Shown: piece after piece, positions 209-16,703 of the stretch
How positions within the stretch are numbered: the first letter of the stretch is position 1
Layout of the letters: each line of letters begins with the position of its first letter
DNA from: a virus
Length of the DNA: 21,034 nt
IMG/VR virus record: IMGVR_UViG_3300025806_000274
Coordinates: 1-21,034 of that record
Strand: one strand, 5' to 3'
Notes under the pieces: generated by a model
What the model was told of the DNA's origin: nothing
What the model saw: the letters and a program-made list of their open reading frames with translations, nothing else
The model's database searches: none
Program-made: the position numbers and the translations under genes

Positions 209-246
209 GTAGCATGATAATAACAGATAACTAAAGAGTGGGGTAT

Positions 247-1617
247 ATGGATAACTTGAGAATAGAAAAAAGCAATTACGGCTTTAAAAGGGTTTACAAA
301 GATGTCAATGTATATGATGCAGCTTTAGAGAGAGTTGATTTTATATTCAAAAACTTTGATCGTGTTTATCTTTCTTTTTCGGGAGGGAAAGACTCTGGAG
401 TAATGTTAAACCTATGCTTGGATTACATGAAAAAAAATAACATCAGAGACAAGAAGCTTGGAATTCAAATTTTAGATAACGAAGCAAATTATGAGTACTC
501 ATTGCAATTTATGCACAAAATATTACAAGACAATATTGAATACCTCGACATATATTGGTGCTGCCTTCCAGTGACGCTGCCATGCTGCATTTCTTCTTAT
601 GAGATAGACTGGCAGTGCTGGGGAGAAAAAGATAAGCATAGATGGATTAGAGAGATGCCTAAGCAGGACTACATTGTAAATATTGATAATCACAAATTTG
701 GCGATCTTTTTATTGAAAATATGAACTACGATGAATTTTGGGATATGTTTTCTGAGTGGTATAGTCAAGGAAAGAGTTGCGCTAATTTAATCGGAATAAG
801 AACGCAAGAGAGCCTTAACCGATACAGGGCAATACTAAACGACAGAAAAGAAACGAAAGACGGTTTAATGTGGACAAAGAAAAACACTGAGCACACATAC
901 AACTGCTATCCTATTTTCGATTGGAGAACCTCGGACGTATGGGCTTCAAATGCTAAGTTTGAGTGGCTTTACAATAAGCTCTACGATGTTTTTTATATGT
1001 CAGGTGTTCCAGTCGAAACAATGAGGGTGGCCAGCCCATTTATGAGCGAAGCAAAGGCTAGCTTAAACTTATATAGAGTTATTGACGGCCATACGTGGGC
1101 GAGGTTATGCGCAAGAGTGAGCGGGGCTAACTTCACAGCCACGTACGGAAAGCAGCTTAACTACAACAGCTTTTCTTTGCCAGATGGTCATACATGGAAA
1201 TCTTTTGTGAAGTTTTTAATTGATACTTTGCCGGAGCAGTCATCAGCAAATTTTAAGCAGCGCTTTATCCAATCAATAAAATTCTGGGGTAGAGTGGGGC
1301 GCGGGTTAAACGAAGATATTATAAGCAATTTAAAATCTATAGGTATAAAGTTTCACTTAAATGGAGTCACTCCACATGGAAGAGGCAACTTAAGGCGAGT
1401 GATAATAAAGGTACCGCCTGATCACCTAGACGGCTTAAAAAGCAACGCCGGTAGCGTAACTAGCTGGAAAAGGTTCTGTATAACGATACTTAAAAATGAT
1501 CATACATGTAAGTATCTAGGCTTGCAGCCAGCGAAGCACCAGCAAGAAAGGCAAAGATCAATACAAAAAAAATATAAATCATTAAATAAGAATGGGGCGA
1601 AAAATGAAAATAGTTAG
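247..1617 (+). CDS. ibrA: IbrA-like PP-loop protein (PAPS-reductase-like, DUF3440)
   Basis: The 456-residue protein has the N-terminal PP-loop signature SFSGGKDSGVML (SGGKDS at residues 45-50), which binds ATP in PAPS reductases and related adenylating enzymes. Further DUF3440 hallmarks are a cysteine-rich CCLPVTLPCC segment (105-114), GIRTQESLNRYRAI (183-196) and a C-terminal ILKND tail (about 406-430). Length matches E. coli IbrA, a proposed activator of prophage eib genes whose chemistry is not established. I chose ATG 247 over the GTG at 238 because the GTG lacks a clear ribosome binding site; AG-rich sequence with GGGG precedes the ATG. The next gene overlaps it by 14 bases, and IbrA/IbrB pairing is the usual arrangement. 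A PP-loop fold is near certain; PAPS as the actual substrate is not. Confidence 0.9.
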   Translation: MDNLRIEKSNYGFKRVYKDVNVYDAALERVDFIFKNFDRVYLSFSGGKDSGVMLNLCLDYMKKNNIRDKKLGIQILDNEANYEYSLQFMHKILQDNIEYLDIYWCCLPVTLPCCISSYEIDWQCWGEKDKHRWIREMPKQDYIVNIDNHKFGDLFIENMNYDEFWDMFSEWYSQGKSCANLIGIRTQESLNRYRAILNDRKETKDGLMWTKKNTEHTYNCYPIFDWRTSDVWASNAKFEWLYNKLYDVFYMSGVPVETMRVASPFMSEAKASLNLYRVIDGHTWARLCARVSGANFTATYGKQLNYNSFSLPDGHTWKSFVKFLIDTLPEQSSANFKQRFIQSIKFWGRVGRGLNEDIISNLKSIGIKFHLNGVTPHGRGNLRRVIIKVPPDHLDGLKSNAGSVTSWKRFCITILKNDHTCKYLGLQPAKHQQERQRSIQKKYKSLNKNGAKNENS

Positions 1618-2506
1618 ATTGTCAGATTTAAGCAACGAAAAAATAGTAAGCTGCCCAAAAGGCGGGTTCATTAGCAACCGTATATTGACTAAGTCAGATA
1701 ATATGGGTTACTCAATGACAAAAACTATAATCCCCCCTAAGGGCAAGCAGTTTTGGCATTACAAAGAGCATTTGGAGAGCTGTTATTGCATAAGTGGAAA
1801 AGGAATATTAACAAGCGAAAAAACAGGCGCAGAATTTATTATTGAGCCAGATGTAACTTATGTTCTTGATAAAAATGATCCTCATTATTTTGAAGCAGTA
1901 GAAGAGGTTGTTTTGATTTGCGTCTTTAACCCACCGCTACAGGGTGACGAGGTTCACGGTGAGGATGGCTCTTATATTGCAAGCGATAAGCTTTCGCCTG
2001 TCTATAACGTTAAAGCTGTTCATATTGATAGAATAAAATCTAACGATTATAACCCCAACTCTGTCGCCCCTCCTGAAATGGCATTGCTGGAAACCTCAAT
2101 TTGGGAAGACGGATATACCCAGCCAGTAGTTACAGTCTACGATAAAGAAGAGGATTTCTACATCGTAGTCGATGGATTCCATAGATTTAGAACATTAAAA
2201 GAAAGTAAGCGCATAAGGGAGCGAGAGAAGGACATGCTTCCTGTTGTTGTTTTGAACAAAGATATGCACGATAGGATGGCATCAACCATTAGACATAACA
2301 GAGCTAGAGGCAGTCACAATATAGAGCTTATGAGCACGATAGTTTCAGAGTTAGTTGAAATGGGGAAGGGGGACAAGTGGATTTGCGATCATATTGGAAT
2401 GAGTAAAGACGAGCTTTTACGTCTAAAGCAGATAACTGGAGTTGCCGCTCTTTTTCAGAATACTGACTTTAGTCAATCATGGGAAGCTGAACTTAATGAA
2501 AATTAA
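1604..2506 (+). CDS. Fusion of ectoine-synthase-like cupin and IbrB/ParB-like domain
   Basis: Residues 1-125 of this 300-aa protein look like a complete L-ectoine synthase (EctC), a small metal-dependent cupin that cyclises N-acetyl-diaminobutyrate. Visible matches are NMGYSMTKT, HYKEHLES, TYVLDKNDPH and CVFNPPLQGDEVHGEDGSY. The residues I recall as EctC metal ligands (Glu, Tyr, His) correspond to E58, Y86 and H94. Proposed substrate residues correspond to R26, T41, Y53, H56, C106, E116 and H118. The usual Trp near position 21 is Phe22. Residues 134-290 form an IbrB-like ParB domain: VVDGFHRFRTL (189-199), the basic HNRARGSHN (231-239), then a helix-turn-helix near 258-280. ATG 1604 is preferred over ATG 1592 because GGGG precedes it and EctC proteins start MIVR-like. 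It overlaps ibrA by 14 bases and the next gene by 11. Real ectoine synthesis is unlikely without EctA/EctB; the cupin may use another substrate or act as a sensor. Confidence 0.9.
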   Translation: MKIVRLSDLSNEKIVSCPKGGFISNRILTKSDNMGYSMTKTIIPPKGKQFWHYKEHLESCYCISGKGILTSEKTGAEFIIEPDVTYVLDKNDPHYFEAVEEVVLICVFNPPLQGDEVHGEDGSYIASDKLSPVYNVKAVHIDRIKSNDYNPNSVAPPEMALLETSIWEDGYTQPVVTVYDKEEDFYIVVDGFHRFRTLKESKRIREREKDMLPVVVLNKDMHDRMASTIRHNRARGSHNIELMSTIVSELVEMGKGDKWICDHIGMSKDELLRLKQITGVAALFQNTDFSQSWEAELNEN

Positions 2507-2906
2507 GAGAGTGTATAGGCATTATTTAGACTGGGAAGAAATGGATACCAAGATGTGGTCTAGCGTAAACAATAAAAAAAGTTACTTAAAAAAAGCAATA
2601 GTTTTTACTAGCGATCACGTGAAGTATGGCAGATTCATGATTCTTGTAGTTAAGAAGTGGCCGGTATCGTGCGAGAACTGGCTTACTGACTTTTCTTGCA
2701 ATAGAAGAGCATGGATAGGCCACGCGGCGGTGGCAATGGCGATTAATTGCCCTGAAAGCATAACTAGAGAAGCATGGGGGCACTTAACAGATGAGCAACG
2801 GACATTGGCGAACAGAGAAGCTGATAGAGCAATCGCTTTTTGGGAAAAGCGCTACTCAAAAGATAAGCTCTTACAGAGAGATGTGGATAAACAGATGTTA
2901 CTTTGA
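2496..2906 (+). CDS. Conserved-looking phage protein of unknown function
   Basis: This 136-residue protein begins MKIKRVYRHY. Its middle has CENWLTDFSCNRRAWIGHAA, then AWGHLTDEQRTLANREADRA, a helical segment ending in basic residues. I recall similar proteins (NRRAWIG and WG-LTDEQR-LAN motifs) next to IbrA/IbrB-like genes in phages, but I know of no function. No catalytic motif, signal peptide or membrane segment is evident. ATG 2496 lies inside the 3' end of the cupin-ParB gene (11-base overlap). An upstream in-frame ATG at 2442 would extend it deeper into that gene with no better ribosome site, so I rejected it. The tight overlap suggests translational coupling and a shared role with the IbrA/IbrB-like proteins. 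Confidence 0.75.
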   Translation: MKIKRVYRHYLDWEEMDTKMWSSVNNKKSYLKKAIVFTSDHVKYGRFMILVVKKWPVSCENWLTDFSCNRRAWIGHAAVAMAINCPESITREAWGHLTDEQRTLANREADRAIAFWEKRYSKDKLLQRDVDKQMLL

Positions 2907-3102
2907 TGATATTCCAGATAGCGCCCCAAAAAAGCTTGAGTCAACACTTAAGGTTCCTAGCTATAGAAAAATAGCTTTATGTATTTTAAAGAATGATCTT
3001 AATTTTAAAGAGCTTGGTTTCAGCCAAGAAAAGTCAAATTGGGCGCAAATTCTTCTTTCAGAAAAAAATGAGAAGGAAAGCAAGCAAATAAAATTAATAT
3101 AA
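2881..3102 (+). CDS. Small protein resembling the IbrA C-terminal tail
   Basis: The 73-residue product begins MWINRCYFDDIP and contains RKIALCILKNDLNFKELGF. Residues 27-51 align without gaps to residues 406-430 of the IbrA-like protein, with 10 of 25 identical (S, I, L, K, N, D, K, L, G, K) and many conservative changes. It is therefore a free-standing copy of the DUF3440 tail. ATG 2881 is preferred over an upstream ATG at 2791, because residues before it are only a shadow of the 136-aa gene's frame, and AGAGAG precedes it. It overlaps that gene by 26 bases. It might pair with or compete for whatever partner the IbrA tail binds; this is inference. Confidence 0.75.
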   Translation: MWINRCYFDDIPDSAPKKLESTLKVPSYRKIALCILKNDLNFKELGFSQEKSNWAQILLSEKNEKESKQIKLI

Positions 3103-14870: not shown

Positions 14871-16703
14871 TTATGCCGCGTTATGGAAAGAGAATTTAGC
14901 AGGTTGTCTAATAGCTAAATCACACGTTTTAAATACTACATAACGTGTCTTACCTTTCAATGAATGCGTGTAAGGGTCAACATTTAACTCAATACCGCCC
15001 CACTCGCCAACTAAGACTTGAGAGAAGTCACCCAAAACGAAGTCATTAGCCGCTAGCTGAGAACTTGTTAAAAAGTTACGCCCAAGAATGTCAGAGCCGG
15101 TAGAGATAAAGTTACCTTCAACGCCAGAACCCTGCTTAGGCGTACTCATCATTGAATTCCAAAATGCAGGTGAACCAATATAGGTAAGGTCGCCCGCACC
15201 GTTAGCCGCCAACAAGGTAGCCATTTGGGTTAGCATTTCTGCGTATGTAGGAGCCGTGGCACTTGCAAATGTAGGGTCATCCACACCAGTTGCACCATCA
15301 ATACCCTGTGGAACGCCAGACGCACCGCCACCGTAGTAGATAGCAGAGTCAAGACCCAAAGCAATAGCTTGAAATAAATCATTTCTAACCAAACCCTCAA
15401 TAGCCGGTGTAGACTGCTGAGTTAATCGGCGTGAAACCTCAGTGTAAGCTGCTAAATCTTTAGGGGTTAGCGATATTGTATCGAATTGTGGCTCGCTCTC
15501 TGTCGCGTCCCCATCTTCTGCACTAATCCATGTCGATGCTGAGCCGCTAGTTTGACGCGGAATGTCTACATTACCAACAAGGCCCGGCAACATAACTGCG
15601 CCAGCTTGCAAAGCAACCATATTGTTACGCAATACGTCGATATAACTACCCGATAGCAAGTTAGTCCCAACTAACTCGGCACCATCTGTGGCCGTTCCCG
15701 CTGTCAAATCACGCTCAAAAACATTTGAGGGAATATAAGCGCCGCGAGCGTTAAAGCCGCTTGGCATTTGTGACTCAGCATCTGCGCAAACTTCAAGCTC
15801 TAAACCGGCGCGTTTTTGTGCAGCACGATCATTAGGGTTTGACATTGCGTCCATTAAGCGAATAAACGAAAAGCTTGATTGCTCTTTTTTGCTTAAATCG
15901 ACATTTGCTTCGACGGTTTGGTTTTCACGGGCTTTAGAGTTGCGATCACCGACTAGCTTTAGTGCTTTTTGGCAAGTTTCCTCGATGCTCATACCTTCGC
16001 TTACAGCCTGTCGACTCAATTCCGGCAAATCGTGAGTATCACACAATGATTTGATAGAATCCATGCGTTTAGATTCTTCGGTGCGAATGCGGGTTTTTTC
16101 TGCTTTCTCGTCGAATACAGGCACTTCTGTTTTAATTTCTTCTGTCATTTTCTTTTCCTCAATAATAGGTTTTTCAGCTTCAACTATTGCTTCAACTGGC
16201 TCTAAATTCATTTCACGACCAACACCCACACTGGAGTCTGCCGGTATAGATACAACAGAAATTTCGTAAGGCTCCCAATCTGTCACTTTAACTTCATCCG
16301 GCAAACCTGCTCGCTCAGTTACGTCATATTTGTGTATTTTATAACCCACTGATACAAGTTGACGAATTCCGTCGAGAACATCTTGAAAGATTTCTTGACC
16401 TCTATTGCTTTTACTAAAGCGGATAACAGCTCTCGCAACGCGATCACTATCGACTCTAGCACTCTCTACAACACCAATTTGATCATTGGTATCATGATTG
16501 ACCAGCACCGCGCCGCCGCTTAACAAGCGATCAAGTCTCAGACTTTGCGGATTATGATCTAAAATTTCCATTCCAAAAAAGCGCTCGTAAGGCTCCTCGC
16601 TTGAAAAAGCCAGCTCAACCGTTCGCGCCTCCTCGTCAATTGCACGCTTTTCTAAAGCGAATGAACGGTCATATTTCTGGCTTACTATGCCTTTTTTACT
16701 CAT
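14871..16703 (-). CDS. Prohead protease-major capsid fusion (HK97-like)
   Basis: The 610-residue protein has two parts. Residues 1-165 form an HK97-type prohead protease: VNHDTNDQIGVV with His70, and RQLVSVGYKI with Ser118, plus EPYEISVVSIPAD (Glu147 possibly third). Residues 166-280 are charged and helical, like a scaffold or delta domain. Residues 300-610 are an HK97-fold capsid: GAYIPSNVFERDLTAGT, NVDIPRQTSGSASTWISAED, FDTISLTPKDLAAYTEVS and KTRYVVFKTCDLAIRQPAKF. A separate protease and capsid are more usual. An internal ribosome site before Met186 could yield a 425-residue scaffold-plus-capsid form. It overlaps the portal gene by 8 bases. The protease would cut the linker to release mature capsid; the exact site is not visible. 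Confidence 0.9.
   Translation of the reverse strand: MSKKGIVSQKYDRSFALEKRAIDEEARTVELAFSSEEPYERFFGMEILDHNPQSLRLDRLLSGGAVLVNHDTNDQIGVVESARVDSDRVARAVIRFSKSNRGQEIFQDVLDGIRQLVSVGYKIHKYDVTERAGLPDEVKVTDWEPYEISVVSIPADSSVGVGREMNLEPVEAIVEAEKPIIEEKKMTEEIKTEVPVFDEKAEKTRIRTEESKRMDSIKSLCDTHDLPELSRQAVSEGMSIEETCQKALKLVGDRNSKARENQTVEANVDLSKKEQSSFSFIRLMDAMSNPNDRAAQKRAGLELEVCADAESQMPSGFNARGAYIPSNVFERDLTAGTATDGAELVGTNLLSGSYIDVLRNNMVALQAGAVMLPGLVGNVDIPRQTSGSASTWISAEDGDATESEPQFDTISLTPKDLAAYTEVSRRLTQQSTPAIEGLVRNDLFQAIALGLDSAIYYGGGASGVPQGIDGATGVDDPTFASATAPTYAEMLTQMATLLAANGAGDLTYIGSPAFWNSMMSTPKQGSGVEGNFISTGSDILGRNFLTSSQLAANDFVLGDFSQVLVGEWGGIELNVDPYTHSLKGKTRYVVFKTCDLAIRQPAKFSFHNAA
16146..16160 (-). promoter_or_regulatory. 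Internal ribosome binding site in the capsid gene
   Basis: Within the protease-capsid gene the coding strand reads GAGGAAAAGAAAATG. AGGA (16159-16156) stands 7 bases before an in-frame ATG (16148-16146) that encodes Met186. The position is exactly at the junction of protease and scaffold-like region. Start there gives a 425-residue product, a normal size for an HK97-type capsid with delta domain. The site could also be chance from Glu-Lys codons. Confidence 0.45.

Follow-up and report, generated by a model that had tools for sequence, protein, structure and literature searches.

An ectoine synthase-derived iron cupin partnered with IbrA and IbrB in phages

The fusion gene and its operon

The stretch of DNA analysed here (the window) is a 21-kb virus record of 21,034 nucleotides, IMGVR_UViG_3300025806_000274 in IMG/VR. 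Its first part carries the following features:

238–1617, plus strand: IbrA-like protein, a PP-loop ATPase of the PAPS reductase family that carries DUF3440 and belongs to the cupin-bearing clade of IbrA (Pfam, phrog_2302, IbrA tree)
1604–1981, plus strand: EctC-type iron-cupin domain, residues 1–126, with Phe22 in place of Trp21 and E58, Y86 and H94 kept (profile and structure matches)
1994–2506, plus strand: IbrB-type ParB/Srx-fold domain, residues 131–300, with motifs DGFHR and RHNRARGSH, on one polypeptide with the cupin (phrog_2159, near-invariant residues)
2496–2906, plus strand: OrfX, all-helical with no fold recognised, a conserved member of the operon that overlaps the end of the fusion gene by 11 bases
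2791–3102, plus strand: OrfY, small, resembling the C-terminal part of the IbrA DUF3440 (Pfam DUF3440, E 4.4e-8) and overlapping OrfX in another frame

Elsewhere the recognisable genes encode ordinary head and tail proteins of a tailed phage, and a search for tRNA genes in the window found none. One 610-residue frame (14871–16703) joins a head maturation protease to the major capsid protein.

The fusion frame is open over 1592–2506 (+), and its start is likely the ATG at 1604, given a GGGG-type ribosome-binding site ahead of it and homologues that likewise begin with MKV or MKI. Residues 1–126 match the Pfam model Ectoine_synth (PF06339) over profile positions 1–125 of 127 (E 1.1e-38, 132.7 bits, cut-off 27), reach 134.8 bits as a domain and 132 as a whole protein against NCBIfam PRK13290 (curated cut-off 128), and match EctC crystal structures at E 4e-21; judged by these scores, the resemblance to EctC is far above chance. 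As an earlier note on this DNA had read it, the cupin continues in frame into a ParB domain of IbrB type: residues 131–298 match phrog_2159 (IbrB/ParB) at E 8.5e-77, and the Pfam ParB_N score of the domain, 22.9, lies under its cut-off of 26.3.

The upstream protein matches PAPS_reduct (E 5.9e-10, 39.9 bits, cut-off 22.5) and DUF3440 (E 7.7e-57, 192.4 bits, cut-off 25) in Pfam, as well as phrog_2302 (E 9e-108). A PAPS_reduct plus DUF3440 protein with an adjacent ParB-like IbrB is, by its profile matches, an IbrA/IbrB pair, as in E. coli K-12 (YbdN/YbdM) and in the PAPS reductase and ParB pairs of other phages. A match at the level of DndC, which acts in DNA phosphorothioation, was not reached (TIGR03183, 18.2 bits against a cut-off of 290), and the PADLOC defence models returned only a weak DndC match for IbrA (E 1e-6) and none for the fusion, OrfX or OrfY.

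Cupin fold and active site

The structure of the fusion was predicted with 52 homologues. The cupin part has pLDDT mostly of 88–98, and at a pTM of 0.45 for the model the mutual placement of the two domains is unreliable. The predicted cupin fits the S. alaskensis EctC crystal structure with Z 19.0 and an rmsd of 1.1 Å over 112 residues; for P. lautus EctC the Z is 17.9, and the next-best cupins score about 13. Together with the profile coverage, this bears out the claim of the earlier note that the match extends over full-length EctC and not the cupin core alone.

On the residue map of iron ligands and substrate or product contacts published for P. lautus EctC (PMC6344544), the ligands Glu57, Tyr84/85 and His92/93 correspond to E58, Y86 and H94 of the window cupin, and further contacts have counterparts in S24, R26, T41, Y53, H56, C106, F108, E116 and H118. 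Aligning the cupin to EctC structures, a check that had been suggested, thus places the metal ligands at equivalent positions and upholds every ligand and contact named beforehand, namely all of the above except S24 and F108. In common with EctC (PF06339; P. lautus 5ONM–5ONO, S. alaskensis 5BXX), the phage cupin has the full-length fold, the iron ligands, Arg25, Thr40, Tyr52, Glu57, Phe106 and the lid region. All of 116 unique phage cupins keep E58 and Y86, and 115 of them keep H94; R26, T41, Y53, H56, E116 and H118 are each invariant (116/116). The dN/dS of the phage cupin, 0.02–0.14, is that of strongly purifying selection, although the ratios are approximate because several dS values are saturated.

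What sets the phage cupins apart from EctC is the loss of Trp21, replaced by Phe22 in the window. The role proposed for Trp21 of P. lautus is to keep the polarised amide stable and to push or position the substrate; the W21A variant retains 9.7% activity, and all of 437 ect-cluster EctCs have this Trp, as do 145 orphans, some of them with a two-residue shift (PMC6344544). We counted Trp anywhere in an eight-residue window before R26, because the MAFFT placement of residues 18–23 is uncertain, with a two-residue length difference: it is present in 1 of 116 phage cupins as against 26 of 26 bacterial proteins (16/16 ectB-linked and 10/10 orphan EctCs). Other residues are fixed in the phage clade instead, among them Phe96 (115/116) and Trp51 (96/116). 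The sole phage cupin seen with a Trp near position 22 is encoded at L078:5031–5402; its nearest relative in the tree, L083, is without it.

A single differing aromatic had been noted earlier, and the change from Trp21 to Phe22 stands. The invariance of Trp21 in ect-cluster EctCs and the W21A value make it weightier than was thought, and it is not alone, since Asn38 of P. lautus is Thr39 here. The latter was tried as a sign of changed specificity and dropped: ectB-linked EctCs mostly have His at this position, which is thus not diagnostic. Phe22 could partly stand in for the cation-pi contact of the Trp, and some ectoine synthesis could persist. Because the protein passes the EctC sequence models and fails on Trp21 and on ect-cluster features, we class it from its sequence as an EctC-derived cupin and do not file it as an ectoine synthase.

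Loss of Trp21 would also fit a structural relic, an ex-enzyme domain kept as a non-catalytic scaffold or oligomerisation module of an IbrA/IbrB complex. Cupins commonly dimerise, and many of the partners are fused or translationally coupled, both of which suit such a role, and the intact ligands could alternatively serve structure or metal sensing. A scaffold, however, is unlikely to keep the iron ligands together with R26, T41, Y53, H56, E116 and H118 down to about 41% identity, and we regard this explanation as quite improbable.

Linkage to ibrA and ibrB, and common origin

Homologues of the cupin occur widely among viral contigs, of which a cupin-only query gave 80, a best-hit sample of the collections whose proportions are not population frequencies and in which absence means absence within the fetched flanks. 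IbrB is found in 79 of them, IbrA in 75, and OrfX and OrfY in nearly all; in four of the five contigs without IbrA the operon lies at or close to the end of the contig, and the fifth, L129, stops just past the cupin gene. EctB, taken as the marker for the ect cluster, occurs in none of the 80 contigs and among none of the frames of the window, in agreement with the earlier remark that ect genes are missing nearby. No recurrent additional modification gene was seen around the operon, where the neighbours resemble general phage replication and recombination genes.

A genuine EctC used as the query retrieved just five loci from viral contigs, four of them linked to ibrAB and one an ectB–ectC contig. 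The latter (L282:1–1792, an IMG/VR record) begins with a bacterial ectB–ectC pair with Trp21 intact and resembles host DNA from the edge of a prophage. A cupin match of 33% in a phage record (L123, MT835761) was rejected as belonging to a bacterial ectB–ectC fragment; the inspected end of this GenBank 'Bacteriophage sp.' scaffold carries other bacterial-looking genes besides, and is probably non-phage there. Host-like contigs aside, the viral EctC-like genes found here sit in ibrAB operons.

This context bears on osmoprotection, in which the phage cupin would be an auxiliary metabolic gene making ectoine from host N-gamma-acetyl-diaminobutyrate. A recent metagenomic study treats a viral 'ectoine synthase', which may or may not belong to this clade, as osmostress help (PMC13079714), and the EctC-like fold and intact iron site would allow it. 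Against it stand the loss of Trp21 in 115 of 116 phage cupins, the lack of EctB beside all 80 contig cupins, the fusion to a ParB-like protein and the strict linkage to ibrAB, which does not figure among known osmolyte pathways. We therefore consider osmoprotection very unlikely, and a boost to the host ectoine pathway, one of the roles first suggested, is not supported because ect genes are missing and the cupin has lost a residue on which full ectoine synthesis depends. These results warn against taking viral 'ectoine synthase' genes for salt-stress helpers.

Cupin and IbrB are fused in 26 of the 80 contigs, about a third, and are separate genes in the others, sometimes with several genes between them. 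Gene orders include ibrA-cupin-ibrB-orfX-orfY, ibrA-cupin-orfX-orfY-ibrB and ibrB-orfX-orfY-ibrA-cupin, and at least three changes by fusion or fission fall on the cupin tree. Such switching fits partners that were already working together, and shuffled order with constant membership is typical of proteins acting together.

The fused state could also suggest a sensor: a small ligand of the cupin (ectoine, the ectoine precursor or iron) would control how the ParB domain binds DNA, a role that cupin domains play in some transcription regulators. Cupins act as sensor domains in other systems, and annotation names IbrA/B co-activators of prophage gene expression. Yet the cupin is free-standing in most loci, at times several genes from ibrB, and catalytic residues that mere binding does not need are invariant; this weakens the sensor role that had been put forward, and we think it unlikely.

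The search for other EctC–ParB fusions also tempers the earlier view that such a protein in a phage is unexpected. That of mycobacteriophage Gaia (GenBank KJ567043) was already annotated 'ectoine synthase/ParB multidomain protein'. Gaia (gp103–gp107) and Pseudoalteromonas phage XCL1123 share the operon of ibrA, cupin, ibrB, OrfX and OrfY, whose products are known there by annotation. Gaia has the fused form and differs by one additional gene between the fusion and OrfX, whereas XCL1123 shows a clean split, with the cupin stop one base ahead of the ibrB ATG.

In a midpoint-rooted tree, the phage cupins form one clade (support 98/93) that adjoins orphan EctCs of Rhodobacteraceae, apart from ectB-linked EctCs; the deep branching order is uncertain because the cupin alignment is short. 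These bacterial orphans (nearest Rhodobacteraceae, 46–50% identity), on the next branch of the tree, likewise stand without an ect operon and share Cys60 and Leu104. Unlike the phage cupins, bacterial orphans keep Trp21 (10/10), and those of Rhodobacteraceae have no ibrA match in the fetched 8 kb. Among 398 genomes from the phylum to which a Rhodobacteraceae genome belongs, no full-length fusion was found, and EctC and IbrB occur only apart. In the IbrA tree, all 35 cupin-bearing rows fall into one clade (support 100/100) on a long stem of 0.72, and the flanks fetched for the 46 rows outside it contain no cupin. Some 30 positions of IbrA set the cupin clade apart, being fixed there and different in other IbrAs, which together with the single cupin-bearing clade indicates that cupin and IbrA changed together.

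A possible step in an IbrA/IbrB pathway

The explanation that we find best, at a probability of roughly 60% and from sequence comparison, is that the cupin is a working EctC-type iron enzyme, acquired once by phages and re-targeted from ectoine to a step in an IbrA/IbrB pathway; osmoprotection and pure sensing fit worse. Among the roles first proposed, action on an amino-acid-like group carried by another substrate is accordingly the one that we would favour, given the invariant iron site, the loss of Trp21 and the obligate partnership of the cupin with one IbrA clade. IbrA, as a PP-loop ATPase, would activate or build an amine- or amide-bearing group; the iron cupin may then polarise an amide carbonyl and close a ring on that group, or carry out a related condensation or dehydration. 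The ParB-like IbrB, possibly an NTP and DNA binder, might hold or deliver the substrate, which is probably a nucleotide or a nucleic acid, and fusion of cupin and IbrB would allow channelling of the product.

In the openly accessible literature, we found no paper on the EctC–ParB fusion or on IbrA/IbrB biochemistry. The fusion itself is already in GenBank, in Gaia, with split genes in XCL1123; what appears to be new is the obligate, single-origin partnership of cupin and ibrAB, the altered pocket and the presence of two further conserved genes, OrfX and OrfY. Ibr genes are common in phages and present in E. coli, and an obligate partner with well-understood catalysis, an iron cupin that joins amide and amine into a ring, narrows the possible products of IbrA/IbrB, for which the cultured phages Gaia and XCL1123 offer a directly testable handle. 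To the question of what orphan EctCs do, the phage cupins also add a group that is large, coherent and constant in its gene context.

The common IbrA/IbrB forms are without the cupin: among 219 phage records with an IbrB match, 4 have it. The many cupin-less systems with no tailoring gene in sight argue that the cupin is not required for core IbrAB function. Outside the cupin clade, an SNF2/ResIII-type helicase adjoins and precedes ibrA in 28 of 44 loci, hinting at a DNA substrate, and OrfX accompanies it in 14 of the 44, never with the helicase in that set; helicase and ParB-like protein would together point to a nucleic-acid substrate.

In 4 of 40 cupin-less loci with both ibrA and ibrB, and additionally in L084, a GNAT acetyltransferase gene lies between the two, in the usual slot of the cupin (L218:5303–5716; L225:5290–5718, listed together with L085; L254:5062–5574; L239:5519–5914; L084:410–832), and GNATs of those kinds were not seen in cupin-bearing loci. 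EctA, the enzyme preceding EctC, is itself a GNAT, which makes this a suggestive parallel, from few loci: by analogy, IbrA/IbrB could make an amine that one branch acylates and another cyclises. Phage IbrA/IbrB may then modify nucleic acids by pathways in which the tailoring enzyme, GNAT or EctC-derived cupin, is interchangeable, the cupin building a cyclic group of the amidine type on a nucleotide or on DNA. We hold this extension only tentatively and think it rather doubtful; if true, it would be modification chemistry new to science.

The two small genes, OrfX and OrfY (window 2496–3102), share about 116 bases, which they read in different frames, an arrangement retained across many related phage loci. 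Structural comparison of OrfX gave nothing usable (best Z 3.8), which does not make its fold new. OrfY resembles a copy of the DUF3440 end of IbrA that has become detached, and in one locus, L090, it is fused to the front of IbrA.
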